Positions 2,065 to 10,192 of a DNA stretch of 10,419 nucleotides are shown one piece after another. Below the pieces are notes generated by a model. The model saw only the letters and a program-made list of their open reading frames with translations. It was not told the DNA's origin and made no database searches. The translations under genes were made by a program, and so were the position numbers. The first letter of the stretch is position 1. Each line of letters starts with the position of its first letter. The stretch comes from Candidatus Desantisbacteria bacterium CG1_02_49_89 (lineage in GTDB: Bacteria > Desantisbacteria > UBA1551): positions 1-10,419 of the forward strand of contig MNUP01000043.1 of the NCBI GenBank assembly GCA_001871075.1, in the 5' to 3' direction.

Positions 2065-2328
2065 GTGCGAGACAGCAAAGGACAGGAGAGAAGACCGGGT
2101 GGTCCAAGGAAAAGGATGAGGTTTGCGCCCAAGAAATGCAAGTTCTGCATGGACAAGATCCCGTATATCGATTACAAGGACATAGCTCTGCTGAGAAGGT
2201 TCATAACACCTTCAGGCAAAATATTGGGCAGCCGTATTACCGGGAACTGTTCAAGGCACCAATCATACCTTACCCGCGCGATCAAAAGGGCAAGGTATCT
2301 TGCGCTGATCCCGTTCATCGCCATCTAA
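2065..2328 (+). CDS. rpsR: 30S ribosomal protein S18, zinc-binding (C+) type
   Basis: The 87-residue product carries the S18 core: [19 protein letters not shown], then [10 protein letters not shown], then [16 protein letters not shown]. Cys25, Cys28, Cys62 and His65 (CxxC followed by CxxH) are the four ligands of the zinc-binding form of S18. S18 pairs with S6 on the 30S platform. The start is GTG at 2065, 9 bases after GGAGG; the ATG at 2056 is followed at once by a stop, so it cannot be used. Repeat arrays flank the gene on both sides, in contrast to the tight packing usual in this operon. Confidence 0.97.
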
Positions 2329-2332
2329 ATAC

Positions 2333-2456
2333 GATTACGGTGATTCTGTAAAGATGATTACAGTGATTTTTTAATAACGATTACGGTGTAGAAGCAGTAA
2401 CACTGTAATCAGCAGTTAATAATCACCGTAATCATTAGTTGATAATCACTGTAATC
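2333..2456. repeat. GATTACRGTGATT inverted array 2, between rpsR and rplI
   Basis: There are three forward units after the rpsR stop: GATTACGGTGATT (2333-2345), GATTACAGTGATT (2356-2368) and GATTACGGTG (2379-2388). Three reverse units follow before the rplI ribosome-binding site: CACTGTAATC (2401-2410), AATCACCGTAATC (2421-2433) and AATCACTGTAATC (2444-2456). Both the G and the A variants occur in each arm, so several alternative stems are possible. The array begins 5 bases after the stop codon and ends 15 bases before the rplI start. Confidence 0.85.
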
Positions 2457-2915: not shown

Positions 2916-2921
2916 AAACTT

Positions 2922-3030
2922 GATTACGGTGATTTCAAATAAGATTACGGTGATTATTCGAAGATTAACAGATTCTGATTAAGAATTATTTTAAATAATC
3001 ACTGTAATCTCGGTTATAATCACTGTAATC
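2922..3030. repeat. GATTACRGTGATT inverted array 3, between rplI and dnaB
   Basis: Forward units are GATTACGGTGATT at 2922-2934 and 2943-2955, with a degenerate GATTAACAGATT after them at 2963. Reverse units are AATCACTGTAATC at 2997-3009 and 3018-3030. Here the forward units are the G variant and the reverse units the A variant, so forward and reverse pair with one mismatch or a G-T wobble. Placement repeats the rule seen in arrays 1 and 2: forward just after a stop, reverse just before the next start. Confidence 0.82.
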
Positions 3031-3056
3031 ATAGCGGAACGAAGTGGAGCGAAAAA

Positions 3057-4525: not shown

Positions 4526-4555
4526 GCTTTAAAAACACCGGAATCATATTTAAAA

Positions 4556-4568
4556 AATCACCGTAATC
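4556..4568 (-). repeat. Solitary AATCACCGTAATC unit before the PHP gene
   Basis: This is an exact copy of the reverse units at 2421-2433. It ends 8 bases before ATG 4577, repeating the rule that reverse-orientation units precede starts. No forward partner follows the dnaB stop codon; that place is taken by the GTTAAAR array. Confidence 0.75.
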
Positions 4569-4576
4569 GGGACGTA

Positions 4577-5443: not shown

Positions 5444-7225
5444 ATGCCTTTCAAAAAAACCCTATTGATCACCTGTTCTTTTGCTATAGCCTGTTTTTCG
5501 GCGCAGGGGGAGGCCGGAGTGAAAGAAGTGTCTGATGGCAGCATGAAAGTCACGGCAGTTGAGGAGAAAGGGGAGATCTCCGGTTTTGATCTTTCGGCCG
5601 GCGGGAAGATTATCGCGCCCGTGCGCCTTTCGTCAAACGGTTTTATAACGGCTTTAAAAGCCGAAGCAAAGGAAGAGGGAAAAACGAAGACCCTTACGCT
5701 GTCCGGGCTGAAGGGAAAGCCAGGGACAGGCGTGAAGTTCGATGCTTCTGATTTCGTTTCGATCGCGATAACCACGGGCGAGCTGTACCCGGTTGTCAGG
5801 TTCAAGATAACCCTTGCCGAATTCAGCGAAGACGCGTGGAAGGCAGGCGCAGGGAACTGCCCGTTCCATTTCATAACCTGTTCTATGCCTGACGCGGACG
5901 CCTGGCAGATGAGGGGATGGACAATGGCAACCCCGAAAGCAGACCAGTTCCCGCTTTTAATAGATCCCCACGGAGGGAATGACTGCGAAATCGCTTCAAA
6001 ATTCAACAGAAACTGGAGTTACATCTGCCCGCTGGGCGGCCACCCCGTGCCCGCGATCGGTATCTGGGCTCCTGAGAGAAAACACTACGTCGCGTTCCTT
6101 TTTCAGGGAGCAAGGTTCCTTGATCACACCGAGAAATATATAGCGACAGCGTACTGCTGGAAAGAAGGCAGCGATAACCAGTTCATAACGCTCGCGTATC
6201 CTTACGGCGGAGCGCTCTACCAGAGCCTGGTGCTCCCCAAAAAAGGTGATTCGTTCGGGTCGTGGTTCCACCTGGTATGGTCCATTGACATGCCTGCCGC
6301 GAAAGAGCCGCACGAACTGATGCACGAATTTATTTTTGCGAAATATTCCGCGTTACTCCCGCAGGTTCCCCGCATTAACGATATGTCATACCTGACCGGC
6401 CAGAGCCAGAAAGCGCTGAAGGTTTTCCCCCAGGCGTCCGGAACAGGCCTGGTCTATAAAAGCGGCGGGGACGCGTTTTCAGAACCGGGCGGGATGTATA
6501 TCAGCGGGTTTGACATGCACAGGGAGCTGCCGGTTGAAGCCGCTTTCAGGAGAAAGCAGAAAGCGGAAATAGAAAGGTGCAAGAAAGACCTTGAGTATCT
6601 CTATCCCCTTGCCAAAAAGATCAAGGCCGGCGGGGATGAATGTATAGTCTGGGAAGAGCCGCTTGAAGGAAAGTGGAAACCGGGGTGGGACCCTGACAAC
6701 AGGAGCATACACAACAGCGATATGTGGGCTCCGGGTATATCTCTGGTCGACCTTTACCGCAACGAGAAAGACCCCAAATACCTTCCCTGGATAGACGGCA
6801 TCTACAACTGGACCAAGCATTTCCTGTTCACCCGCAACGAGTTCCACGATGTCCCGTCTTCCCCGTTCGCCATCGGCTGCAATATGATGTGCACCTTCCT
6901 TATGGATTACTATTTTACCTTCAAACACGACCCTGAAAGGGCGCAGAAAGCAAAGGACGCGGTTGATATGGCAAGGGCGTACCTTTACAGGTACCTGCCG
7001 ATATGGCCTTCTGACAACGACGAGGCTGATAACCTGGACAGCGCTTTCCTCTTAGAGCCCAATTCAGGCAGGGACTGGGCCGCGCTTGCCTGCGCCAACG
7101 AGGTGCAATGGGTCCTGAACGAGATCACCGAAATTTACGTGCATACCGGGGACAAGAAGCTGAATTACTACATGAAAGGCAATCTTGAGCGCTGGTACCT
7201 GCTATACAGGGACGAATTACCATAA
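5444..7225 (+). CDS. Large secreted protein, N-terminal part (probable six-hairpin/toroid glycan-active enzyme), broken by a frameshift
   Basis: I do not recognise a named family. The 593-residue frame starts with a signal peptide: MPFKK, then a hydrophobic stretch to about residue 20. A Cys in AIAC at residue 17 leaves a lipoprotein possible. Residues about 25-280 look beta-rich. Residues about 370-590 are helical and rich in Trp, Tyr and Asp, with segments such as DMWAPGISLVDLYRNEKDPKY and GIYNWTKHFLFTRNEFHDV. These resemble alpha/alpha-toroid glycosidases and polysaccharide lyases, but that is an inference. The ATG abuts the PHP stop, with GGGAGG just upstream. The protein stops abruptly at YLLYRDELP while similar composition continues in the +1 frame, so this is most likely the first half of one longer protein. 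Confidence 0.72.
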   Translation: MPFKKTLLITCSFAIACFSAQGEAGVKEVSDGSMKVTAVEEKGEISGFDLSAGGKIIAPVRLSSNGFITALKAEAKEEGKTKTLTLSGLKGKPGTGVKFDASDFVSIAITTGELYPVVRFKITLAEFSEDAWKAGAGNCPFHFITCSMPDADAWQMRGWTMATPKADQFPLLIDPHGGNDCEIASKFNRNWSYICPLGGHPVPAIGIWAPERKHYVAFLFQGARFLDHTEKYIATAYCWKEGSDNQFITLAYPYGGALYQSLVLPKKGDSFGSWFHLVWSIDMPAAKEPHELMHEFIFAKYSALLPQVPRINDMSYLTGQSQKALKVFPQASGTGLVYKSGGDAFSEPGGMYISGFDMHRELPVEAAFRRKQKAEIERCKKDLEYLYPLAKKIKAGGDECIVWEEPLEGKWKPGWDPDNRSIHNSDMWAPGISLVDLYRNEKDPKYLPWIDGIYNWTKHFLFTRNEFHDVPSSPFAIGCNMMCTFLMDYYFTFKHDPERAQKAKDAVDMARAYLYRYLPIWPSDNDEADNLDSAFLLEPNSGRDWAALACANEVQWVLNEITEIYVHTGDKKLNYYMKGNLERWYLLYRDELP

Positions 7226-8984
7226 AAGCATAAGCGAATACCCGGAAACGGCATTCACAGAAGGCCTGGGGTTCTTCGACGGGGCAGGCCCGGGAAGAGG
7301 CGGGAGGTACAACTTCGGAGTAGGCGGCATACTGCCCTTCCATTTTCCGATAGGTAATTCAATGCTGCGCGTCACAGCCGGGGAAAAGGGCGCGTTCGCA
7401 TGCAACAAAAAAGGAGCGCACACCTATATAACGGAATACCGCTACTCGCAAGACGGCAATTTCGCGTTCAGGGTAAAAAGCAAACTGAAAGAGCCTTTCG
7501 ACGTTTCGATCACCTTCCCTTTTTATAACATAACTGACAAAACCGTGAAGATCGCCCGCGGCGATACCAGGATGGAGCTTGTAAGGTCCGAGGGTTACAA
7601 GACCCCGCCCACAAGCCCGTCATCGCTTTACGTGATGGGGGTCCTTGACGAAGACATGGTGATCGTGGGAGACGTGGATATGAAGTCCCCGGTCATAACG
7701 CTTGAGCACGGGTTTGAATACAGGAAACCCTCCGCGCTTGAGCTGAAAGACAACGGGTTTGAAATGCTTTTTCTGCCCGCGAACGCCGAGGTTGCCATTG
7801 ACTGGGAGGACGTGAATTCCTTTGCCGGGCTGCTTCCAGGTAAGCACTGCGCGTTCAAAATCCCGTATTACATAATACCTCCGGAAATAAGCCAGGGGCC
7901 GATCGCTGTTAAGGATAAGTGCAGTTTCACTGAGCCGGTTTCAGGCGCTTCCAGGATCTTTATCCTGTATTCTGAGGAAGGACCCGCCCCCGGGATTTCC
8001 GCGGTGCTTGATGATGGGAAAAACATCGCGTTTTCAGAAGACTCGGCTCTCGCGTGGAAGTTCTGGCCTCCGTGTTTCCAGAAGAAGTTCTGGATGGGAA
8101 GTGCCGCGGTACCAGCGGGAAGGAAAATTACAGGCATCATTCTGAAGGACGCGCTTGTTTTCGCTGTGACCTGCTGGAAAGGTGACGACGCGGGCCTGAA
8201 ACCGGTGATGGAATGTTTTGCCGCTGCGGCGCTTGAAGGCAAAAAAATAAAAGCCGCGGAAAAAGAAACAGGGGAATTCAAGAAAAAACTTGAGGGAGTT
8301 CCGGCCGGAAAGATGGCGATGCTGCCCCCAAGCTATGGAAGCATCGCGGCAACCCTTGCGGGCAAGATCGGCATAATGGACAAGATGAAAAAGTTGAACG
8401 ACAGCCAGCTTGTGACCCCGGAATTCTTCAACGCCCAGAAGTTCCCGGTCGCCTTTTATTTCGGTGGCGAGGAATACGTGAAAACGGTCAGGGAGGACGG
8501 GGACGGCATTGAAGCTCTGAAAAGGTACCTGGCAGGCGGCGGGTTGCTGGTGCTTATGGGCGCGGGCCCTTACCCGATGTTCTACGGGTATGAAAAAGGC
8601 GCCAGCGCGGGTTCAGACCCGTTCCTGCCGAAGATCGGAGTTCCGATGAGCTGCCCGTTCGAAAGGCCGCCCGAACCGATCGAAATGACTTTCAACAAGA
8701 ACCAGAAGATAATCAAGGGGCTTCCTGAGACGCTTCCTTTCCCGGAGACCGGGGACCAAAGGCTGCGGCCGATCCAGGCAGAGCAGGTAACAAGCGAGGC
8801 GCAGGTCACTTCAATACTTACCGCCGAGAACTACGGGGACGCCATCTGCTACATTGAATTCACCGACGGGGAGCTGAAGGGCGGGAAGATCCTTTATGTC
8901 TGGGCGACCCTGATGGGCCAGGATTACGGCCAGACCATAATGAGCGACGTGTACAAGTTCATCGCGGCGCAGCTTATCAAATAA
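7185..8984 (+). CDS. Large secreted protein, C-terminal part (beta-rich region plus glutamine-amidotransferase-like domain), in the +1 frame
   Basis: This frame overlaps the preceding one by 41 bases and has no ribosome-binding site before TTG 7185. Its first residues up to about TNYHK read through the out-of-frame end of the upstream part. I therefore take it as the continuation of the same gene. The open frame begins only at 7176, so the shift lies at 7176-7225, probably near GAATTACC (7214-7221), where RDE then YHKSISEYPE would join smoothly. Residues about 25-330 look beta-rich, with GLGFFDGAGPGRGGRYNFG at the start. Residues about 400-599 resemble a class I amidotransferase-like (ThuA/GH42-trimerisation-like) alpha/beta domain, with LKRYLAGGGLLVLMGAGP near residue 450; no catalytic Cys is evident at the nucleophile position. 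The 3' end, MSDVYKFIAAQLIK, is duplicated at 9453-9498. If expressed separately, the first in-frame ATG is 7362. Confidence 0.68.
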   Translation: MSAGTCYTGTNYHKSISEYPETAFTEGLGFFDGAGPGRGGRYNFGVGGILPFHFPIGNSMLRVTAGEKGAFACNKKGAHTYITEYRYSQDGNFAFRVKSKLKEPFDVSITFPFYNITDKTVKIARGDTRMELVRSEGYKTPPTSPSSLYVMGVLDEDMVIVGDVDMKSPVITLEHGFEYRKPSALELKDNGFEMLFLPANAEVAIDWEDVNSFAGLLPGKHCAFKIPYYIIPPEISQGPIAVKDKCSFTEPVSGASRIFILYSEEGPAPGISAVLDDGKNIAFSEDSALAWKFWPPCFQKKFWMGSAAVPAGRKITGIILKDALVFAVTCWKGDDAGLKPVMECFAAAALEGKKIKAAEKETGEFKKKLEGVPAGKMAMLPPSYGSIAATLAGKIGIMDKMKKLNDSQLVTPEFFNAQKFPVAFYFGGEEYVKTVREDGDGIEALKRYLAGGGLLVLMGAGPYPMFYGYEKGASAGSDPFLPKIGVPMSCPFERPPEPIEMTFNKNQKIIKGLPETLPFPETGDQRLRPIQAEQVTSEAQVTSILTAENYGDAICYIEFTDGELKGGKILYVWATLMGQDYGQTIMSDVYKFIAAQLIK

Positions 8985-8998
8985 AGTATCAAGTAGCG

Positions 8999-9014
8999 GC
9001 AGAGCTTGCTCTGC
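8999..9014. repeat. Perfect GC hairpin at the upstream edge of the PIN remnant
   Basis: GCAGAGC (8999-9005) and GCTCTGC (9008-9014) pair perfectly around TT. It lies 14 bases after the stop of the large secreted gene. No T tract follows it, so terminator function is doubtful. It may mark the junction where the following foreign-looking segment begins. Confidence 0.5.
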
Positions 9015-9260
9015 TGTCAATCGATAACTGAAGAAATCAAAGAACTGGCAGAAAGGTACGTTGCTGAAGGGATTATTCCAGAAAGATTCAAAAATGATGC
9101 ACGCCATATTGCTGTGGCAGTGGTGCACAACATGAACGTGATTGTAAGTTGGAATTTGGAGCATATAATCAGATTGAAAACCAAGCTGGGAATAGAAGGG
9201 ATAAATCGTCCCCTTGGCTATCAATCCATAGAGATAATGACTCCCGAGGAGGTATTGTAA
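9006..9260 (+). pseudogene. PIN-domain (VapC-like) protein, N-terminally truncated
   Basis: The readable part, from about ITEEIKELAERYVAEGIIPE onward, matches the C-terminal half of PIN-domain nucleases of toxin-antitoxin systems. It shows DARHIAVAVVHNMNVIVSWN, then EHI, and ends with LGYQSIEIMTPEEVL. In this subfamily the D..HIA...SWN..H block carries the later conserved positions. The N-terminal strand with the first catalytic Asp and the mid-domain Glu, about 60-75 residues, is missing. The only in-frame start is a TTG inside the hairpin at 8999-9014, preceded by an in-frame stop at 8994, so the upstream half is absent rather than hidden. It is therefore probably inactive as a nuclease. 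The next gene starts one base after its stop codon, the usual toxin-antitoxin operon spacing. The segment is AT-richer than the genes to its left. Confidence 0.75.
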
Positions 9261-9261
9261 A

Positions 9262-9444
9262 ATGGCTAAAATATCTAAAGTCCTTGATGAAATTCACAGG
9301 ATAAGAGAAGAGATTTATGAAGAAGAAAAAGGCTTAACTACAGAGGAAGTTTTAAAAAAGATTCATTCGGAATCAGAAAGGATTATGAAGAAATACAATC
9401 TTAAACTGAGGCGCGTAGAAAACAAAGAGACTGTAAGAGTATAA
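9262..9444 (+). CDS. Small charged protein adjacent to the PIN remnant, putative antitoxin-like partner
   Basis: The 60-residue product begins MAKISKVLDEIHRIREEIYE and continues with GLTTEEVLKKIHSESERIMKKY. It is almost wholly predicted helix with dense Glu and Lys. Short proteins with an EIHRIREEIYEE..GL pattern commonly sit beside PIN-domain genes, and I infer the same pairing here. I do not recognise a formal antitoxin family or a DNA-binding fold. The start is supported by GAGGAGG 9 bases upstream, inside the end of the PIN frame, and by a one-base intergenic gap. The frame is intact, unlike its neighbour, so it may still be translated. Confidence 0.7.
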   Translation: MAKISKVLDEIHRIREEIYEEEKGLTTEEVLKKIHSESERIMKKYNLKLRRVENKETVRV

Positions 9445-9452
9445 AAATTGTC

Positions 9453-9498
9453 AATGAGCGACGTGTACCAGTTCATCGCGACCCAGCTGATCAAATAA
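9453..9498 (+). pseudogene. Duplicated 3' end of the large secreted gene (paralogue remnant)
   Basis: These 46 bases match 8939-8984 at 42 positions, including the TAA stop. The encoded tails are MSDVYKFIAAQLIK (first copy) and MSDVYQFIATQLIK (this copy). Two of the changes alter residues conservatively, so this is the tail of a diverged paralogue and not a fresh copying error. The body of that paralogue is missing; the PIN module (8985-9452) occupies the space. Confidence 0.8.
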
Positions 9499-9673: not shown

Positions 9674-9740
9674 ATTCGGGGTGGCTGATAAGTTTAAAGG
9701 AAGAGGACGGCCCAAGAAGTCTCTGGTGCCAGAAAAATAG
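9666..9740 (+). pseudogene. Possible C-terminal scrap of an unidentified basic protein
   Basis: In one frame the segment reads ELFGVADKFKGRGRPKKS and stops at TAG 9738-9740. The GRGRPKK stretch is AT-hook-like and basic. There is no start codon with a ribosome-binding site and the 5' part overlaps the palindromic cassette, so at best this is the tail of a lost gene. It could equally be chance. Confidence 0.2.
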
Positions 9741-9883
9741 GAAAAATACAACCGTCCCACTTTTATACAGAAAAATACAAAGGAAAAAATAACTGGTGCT
9801 GGGCAAAGGACATTGAAGTAGACAACACAGGAAACATATACATCGCAACTATGGAAGGGGTTGTGAAATATAGACAGAAATAA
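9722..9883 (+). pseudogene. C-terminal remnant of a beta-propeller (NHL/SBBP-like) protein
   Basis: The frame ending at TAA 9881-9883 reads WAKDIEVDNTGNIYIATMEG and then VVKYRQK. The pattern DI.VD..GN.Y.AT..G.VK is that of one blade of NHL or SBBP-type beta-propellers. Only about one blade is recognisable; no start codon or ribosome-binding site introduces it, and the upstream sequence is palindromic repeat. I take it as the tail of a gene removed by rearrangement. It ends 12 bases before the next start. Confidence 0.5.
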
Positions 9884-9895
9884 AGGGGAATAAAG

Positions 9896-10192
9896 ATGAA
9901 AAGGCTTATCATAATTACAACATCGCTGGTTTTTGTATTGTGCGCCGGGGCTAGAATCTGGGCACAATCCGACTATACTTCAAAATTAATTGGGGAACTC
10001 AAAGATAAAAATGCGTACGTGCGAATACGTGCTGCAAGAGAGTTGGGGAGAGCAAGAGATCCTTTATCTATAGAATTCCTGATTGACGCACTAAAGGACG
10101 AACACCCGCGTGTCCGAATATTCGCGGCAAGGACTTTGGGGAAAATAGGAGATTCCATGGCTGTGAAACCCTTAATCCTGAAAAACGGATAA
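9896..10192 (+). CDS. Short secreted HEAT-repeat protein, probably truncated
   Basis: The 98-residue product has a signal peptide: MKRL followed by a hydrophobic core to about residue 20, with likely cleavage near WAQ-SDY at 23-24. Two HEAT/PBS-lyase-like repeats follow: LIGELKDKNAYVRIRAARELG at about 31-51, and FLIDALKDEHPRVRIFAARTLG. A third begins as AVKPLI and stops after LKNG. Such exported HEAT proteins normally contain many repeats, and the reading stops inside repeat three, so this looks like a truncated copy or a degraded member. AAGGGG lies about 8 bases before the ATG, so translation is plausible. Repeats of this type mediate protein contacts; no partner can be inferred. Confidence 0.7.
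   Translation: MKRLIIITTSLVFVLCAGARIWAQSDYTSKLIGELKDKNAYVRIRAARELGRARDPLSIEFLIDALKDEHPRVRIFAARTLGKIGDSMAVKPLILKNG

Follow-up and report, generated by a model that had tools for sequence, protein, structure and literature searches.

The stretch of DNA analysed here (the window) is the entire contig C118, 10,419 bp long, of a draft genome of 2.48 Mb that consists of 150 contigs and is 93.5% complete. It contains, in this order, ychF, rpsF, rpsR, rplI, dnaB, a PHP-domain gene and a gene for a large secreted protein. Several intergenic gaps in the ribosomal-protein, dnaB and PHP region (1892-2041, 2327-2456, 2921-3031 and 4531-4569) contain pairs of inverted repeats around GATTACGGTGATT / AATCACCGTAATC, units of about 23 nt that recur from gap to gap. 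The secreted-protein gene contains a one-base frameshift near 7205-7225, which divides it into two open reading frames, while its paralogues on contigs C46 (1,254 amino acids) and C16 (1,126 amino acids), to which its product is 38% identical, are single open reading frames; the frameshift may mean that the gene is a true pseudogene, or it may be an error of sequencing. The protein has no family match in Pfam or NCBIfam, and its predicted structure is poor (mean pLDDT 39.7). The gene has no close homologue in 59 genomes, in GTDB contigs or in viral contigs, a plasmid search gave no match, and an Rfam search found nothing. In genome G001, a relative of the same order and the sole other genome of the phylum among those compared, unrelated genes are located at its position. 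Relatives yielded no empty allele of the locus, since these collections lack a close homologue of the secreted gene. The features of the locus, and of four other loci described below, are listed in Table 1. Downstream of tail copy 2, positions 9726-9884 of the window hold the apparent 3' end of another gene (ending in WAKDIEVDNTGNIYIATMEGVVKYRQK and a stop codon), which is 5'-truncated, has no upstream part and no Pfam match, and lies in the same decaying stretch as the PIN remnant. This is followed by an apparently secreted HEAT-repeat open reading frame of 98 amino acids (9896-10192), which looks shortened.

Table 1. Features of the window locus and positions of the repeated gene ends at the other loci
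Feature	Position	Strand	Description
Host gene	5444..8984	+	Secreted protein of about 1,190 amino acids; two open reading frames, 5444-7225 and 7185-8984
Tail copy 1	8939..8984	+	Final 14 codons of the host gene plus its stop (MSDVYKFIAAQLIK, stop)
Spacer	8985..9020	+	Contains the REP-like palindrome (AAGTAGCGGCAGAGCTTGCTCTGCTG, 8991-9016), which borders the truncated PIN gene
Remnant of the PIN toxin gene (C-terminal half)	9021..9260	+	Frame open from 9006 onwards; lacks the first two catalytic acids
AGGAGG	9247..9252	+	Likely ribosome-binding site of the partner gene, within the PIN remnant; read from the sequence
Partner	9262..9444	+	Intact, 60 amino acids, putative antitoxin; 57-59% identity to the C87 and C29 partners
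AAATTGTC	9445..9452	+	3' flank of the module, common with C29; breakpoint to tail copy 2
Tail copy 2	9453..9498	+	Displaced copy of the host gene 3' end (MSDVYQFIATQLIK, stop); presumably non-functional
C15 (L147)	414-688 and 2100-2402		3' end of a BatE-like TPR/SH3 gene around XRE and M78 peptidase genes; 303 nt, 84%
C35 (L166)	16886-16949 and 18220-18283	minus-strand coordinates	3' end of hypF; 64 nt, 83%
C83 (L212)	2497-2566 and 5817-5886		3' end of a CHU_C-domain gene; 70 nt, one or two differences
C75 (L205)	8762-8815 and 8907-8960		PorV-like gene; orphan second tail 92 nt downstream, no cargo

The last 46 nt of the host gene, stop codon included, recur at an offset of 514 bp with four differences (42 of 46 positions, or 91%; BLAST E 3.8e-11 against a 310-kb sample of the genome), exactly as the original prediction had described. 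For other gene ends the best matches are at chance level and mostly fall at 20-28 of 46 positions. The four differences include a change of K to Q, one of A to T and one silent change, and the longest run identical between the copies is 16 nt. The homology extends from one base 5' of an ATG to precisely the end of the stop codon. Both flanks of copy 2 are unrelated to those of copy 1, with nothing in common outside the 46 nt. A DNA pattern allowing up to three mismatches finds the tail at just these two sites in the 2.48-Mb genome, and the degenerate peptide pattern [ST]DVY[KQ]FIA[AT]QLIK finds the same two sites only. The tail is therefore not a dispersed repeat, in agreement with what had been predicted. 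The window tails are too short to distinguish drift from prior divergence, or to date copy 2.

The 468 nt between the two copies have a G+C content of 37.6%, against 53.7% in the secreted gene, and this AT-rich PIN module appears to be of foreign origin. That it is AT-richer and that it combines a truncated PIN gene with an intact small partner gene had both been noted before, and both hold. The truncation can be gauged from an intact PIN homologue of 156 amino acids on contig C87, which matches PF01850 above the cut-off. Aligned with it at 55% identity, the window copy keeps approximately the last 77 residues, from about residue 80 onwards; its N-terminal half is lost, and with it the first two catalytic acids. 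The break is located at the REP-like palindrome, which is dispersed in the genome, with copies on C100, C85 and other contigs. The region named as the secreted gene in the original prediction is the host gene of the repeat, with the corrections that it is split by a frameshift and that the spacer behind it contains a dispersed palindrome. Comparison with solved structures gave no useful match for the PIN protein or the partner, and the partner has no match to curated antitoxin families.

Relatives of the partner were sought in 290 genomes, and nine genomes gave matches. In G001, G147, G120 and G087 the partner lies directly 3' of a PIN gene, in most cases with an overlap. In G187 (L118, 841-1497) the PIN frame is apparently broken, with an intact partner directly downstream; this appears, from its sequence, to be another case in which the toxin was lost and the antitoxin kept. 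With relatives of the partner directly behind PIN in these five other genomes, the segment can be read as a decayed toxin–antitoxin pair in the order toxin to antitoxin, of which the putative antitoxin is retained. Its linkage to PIN suggests that the partner acts as an antitoxin. Another partner gene of the same genome stands by itself on contig C29 (L020, 4815-5051), where PIN has been cut to its last residues beside palindromic repeats and an equivalent of the ribosome-binding site is retained. The window locus would therefore exemplify loss of a toxin with retention of its putative antitoxin, as C29 would again. The window partner differs from those of C87 and C29 with a dN of about 0.33 and saturated dS; for the partner sequences overall dN is 0.14-0.45, and silent sites are saturated.

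The 3' edge of the module is sharp. The left edge of tail copy 2 abuts AAATTGTC without an extra base. On C29, AAATTGTC likewise follows the partner, and GCCTATAAATTCCTT comes next. A longer sequence, TTGTCGCCNATAAATTCCTT, is present behind the partner on both C29 (L020:5055-5074) and C87 (L019:4432-4451, minus strand), despite the saturation of silent sites, and the window keeps just TTGTC of it ahead of the break. It was considered as the end of a mobile element and rejected, there being two exact copies only, each behind a partner gene. On C87 (L019), the intact PIN–partner pair and a RelE-type pair are located amid long, near-perfect intergenic direct repeats of 48, 57 and 82 nt (3855-3902/5152-5199 and 4005-4146/6063-6250).

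In a scan for similar arrangements that covered 1.41 Mb, or 57% of the genome, the terminal 46 nt of 1,072 genes were each matched against the next 4 kb. It found eight second copies with at least 36 of 46 positions matching. Three are ordinary and were set aside: L168 consists of perfect tandem repeats, L154 of two whole transposase genes and L206 of two intact tandem genes. The remaining five, the window included, are orphan tails, and four of these (window, C15, C35 and C83) bracket cargo, the exception being C75. The four inserts have a G+C content of 37-39%, with 48-56% in the host genes upstream. None contains a recombinase gene, and the four tails have no sequence in common. At four of the five orphan-tail loci the homology ends within 4 nt (0-4) of the stop codon. 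Among 877 gene ends at 80 other loci, on contigs of many different bacteria, which served as a control, there are no orphan tails and three matches, all intact tandem genes; among 191 gene ends of G001 there are none either, one G001 contig being present in both sets. The difference between five and zero is not significant by itself (Fisher P = 0.06) and is suggestive only; it is the likeness in cargo type, composition and layout that carries the case. A counterpart on the start side of a gene was seen on C40 (L171, 7274 and 7410), where a gene 5' end is repeated 136 nt upstream (39 of 46 nt).

The cargo of the other loci is of a related kind. On C15 the XRE and M78 genes match capH and capP in PADLOC; here the homology extends about 150 nt past the stop codon, unlike at the other loci. 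On C35 the insert is a single gene for an AAA_14/DUF4143 ATPase (PADLOC PDC-S01, E 9e-69), and tail 2 begins 2 nt past its stop codon; the longest identical run between the C35 tails is 14 nt. This genome has a single hypF gene, and hypC follows 14 nt 3' of hypF without an insert in G001, in a comparison where the hypF genes are only 54% identical; the second hypF tail is therefore not a remaining paralogue. It is degenerate, having lost conserved residues (DGGIS to DAVIA), as expected for a silent copy. On C83 the cargo is an MNT–HEPN pair, the MNT matching PADLOC PDC-S09, and a deaminase/HATPase_c_4 protein, with the caveat that the CHU_C sorting domain of the host is of a kind often common to paralogues. 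The codon differences between tails are 8 silent to 2 replacement on C15 and about 10 silent to none on C75, a silent excess over the 75% replacement expectation (P = 4e-4 and 1e-6, respectively). Drift after a fresh duplication is unlikely to have produced such differences, which would fit alleles of two strains. A donor allele for the side that would have been joined by homology was not found.

These observations are probably, though by no means certainly, explained by insertion of an AT-rich toxin–antitoxin segment at the 3' end of the secreted gene, through recombination anchored in that gene end. A foreign AT-rich segment encoding a PIN toxin and its small antitoxin would have entered there and doubled the gene end, the upstream copy completing the reading frame and the downstream copy being displaced and silent. 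The likeliest route would be homology-facilitated illegitimate recombination: the incoming fragment, in which the cargo follows an allele of the gene end, would pair at the gene, and an illegitimate junction would form inside the resident tail, so that one of the two tails would be foreign. The silent-rich tails on C15 and C75, together with the evidence from hypF, favour such an incoming gene-end allele with cargo. A true long target duplication would give an identical map, and for the window the two routes would look the same. In a later step the N-terminal half of PIN would have been lost at the REP palindrome, with the antitoxin and its ribosome-binding site retained. An empty allele would read the gene, a single tail and then TAGACCACAGAG. 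This reading is near to the second of the origins originally predicted, a module that arrived together with a paralogue's tail: module and gene tail may well have come by recombination, but paralogues of the secreted gene were rejected as donors, as their C-terminal ends differ.

The origin that had been put forward beside it was a tandem pair of paralogues, the second of them nearly all replaced by the module. As weighed here, the PIN module would have lain between closely similar neighbours, and a deletion would have spared just the last 46 nt of the second gene. In favour, C80 has members of the secreted-gene family side by side, the cargo-free orphan tail on C75 could stem from a lost paralogue, as its differences are exclusively silent, and the window tails themselves show one silent change. 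We nevertheless regard this origin as unlikely. Family members elsewhere in the genome with the same C-terminal domain end differently, the tail does not occur in them, and no body of a second gene is left; on one side the stop codon is the precise limit of the homology, and on the other the module begins just as precisely. The identical map behind the single-copy hypF would require a different cause, tandem paralogy covering the window locus alone. The conservative nature of the replacements, from which a paralogue had been deduced, is a poor guide, as four random substitutions keep the frame open in 69% of trials, and in 6% of trials it is open with an equal or better similarity score. The sharp edge at the stop codon would also suit a site-specific island, in which the 46-nt repeats are the attL and attR sites of an integrase, since lost, that targeted the gene 3' end, the tail being restored as in e14: such an element leaves a substitute gene end at one border and the displaced tail at the other. 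With no recombinase gene in any of the four inserts and no common attachment site, this is very improbable; the four tails being unrelated, a single integrase cannot explain all of them.

Slightly less credible still is a duplication made by local slippage or template switching next to an unrelated module that was already present. Short duplications with one drifting copy are plausible in decaying intergenic DNA, and gene fragments do lie downstream (9726-10192), but tail 2 begins at the module's own 3' flank without an extra base, and three more cargo loci show the same order. We consider it least probable of all that the assembly merged versions of the gene end from two strains into one contig. 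The genome is indeed a 150-contig draft, and the same gene carries a frameshift; however, the exact runs shared by the tails of the window and of C35 are shorter than usual assembly k-mers, and the layout repeats on separate contigs with biologically related cargo.

If insertion with recombination at the gene end is accepted, the locus bears on the spread of toxin–antitoxin and defence genes that have neither a transposase nor an integrase. Its recurrence at three more loci suggests a repeated route by which defence-type genes enter just behind a host gene. If diverged duplicated tails mark insertion, they would be a simple signature, countable in any genome; the tails would date insertions and reveal the side that recombined by homology, and insertion with long target duplication would become testable outside Helicobacter and beyond restriction–modification genes. 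It is doubtful, as a general statement, that this lineage of Desantisbacteria repeatedly gains toxin–antitoxin and defence genes as integrase-free cassettes at host 3' ends, which carry or duplicate the tail and keep the gene intact. Were it true, it would amount to a gene-sparing mobility of defence genes in bacteria, comparable to that of the tail-carrying open reading frames of fungal mitochondria.

No description of toxin–antitoxin or defence cargo combined with diverged tails of a host gene was found in the literature searched, although several known systems show parts of this arrangement. Prophage e14 and phage 21 in icd provide a substitute gene end and leave the original end as a fragment; their insertion requires an integrase and one fixed target, neither of which is seen at the loci described here. 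VapC-like PIN modules (PF01850) consist, like the intact version on C87, of a PIN gene and a small, tightly linked partner, an adjacency conserved in all five of the genomes mentioned above. Differences are that the toxin gene comes first, that the partner falls outside the curated antitoxin families and that the toxin copy in the window is dead.

Insertion with long target duplication was recognised for restriction–modification genes of Helicobacter pylori in a comparison of two strains (Nobusato et al. 2000; PMC1643837, PMC3874152), with duplications on the order of 100 bp (PMC3874152). The process shares with our loci a selfish pair, direct copies of host sequence on both sides, the lack of a transposase and a variable repeat length. 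Direct copies flank the inserts in the window and on C15, C35 and C83, and the cargo (PIN and partner in the window, and that of the other loci) is of the addiction type without a recombinase of its own. The cargo differs, being toxin–antitoxin and other defence-type genes here, and so do the duplicated part, here the 3' end of a gene including the stop codon, the divergence of the copies and the lack of an empty allele among the genomes searched.

Homology-facilitated illegitimate recombination is documented in natural transformation (PMC3240628) and has been proposed for the stacked immunity genes of Vibrio T6SS clusters (PMC5361080). The Vibrio case resembles the route favoured here in that homology would act on one side and an illegitimate junction on the other, the old 3' end is pushed downstream, and protective genes are kept while toxins are lost. 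In Vibrio, however, the displaced tail is the old effector's own, while in the window it comes from an unrelated host gene ahead of the module. In fungal mitochondria, mobile open reading frames supply a foreign C-terminus for atp6, cox2, nad3 or atp9 (PMC3630166). Their driver is a homing endonuclease encoded by the insert, unlike in the window, where the insert consists of the PIN remnant and the partner only. The outcome is nevertheless much alike: one tail completes the host gene, the mobile gene lies behind it, the native tail is displaced, and the tails may differ chiefly by silent changes.
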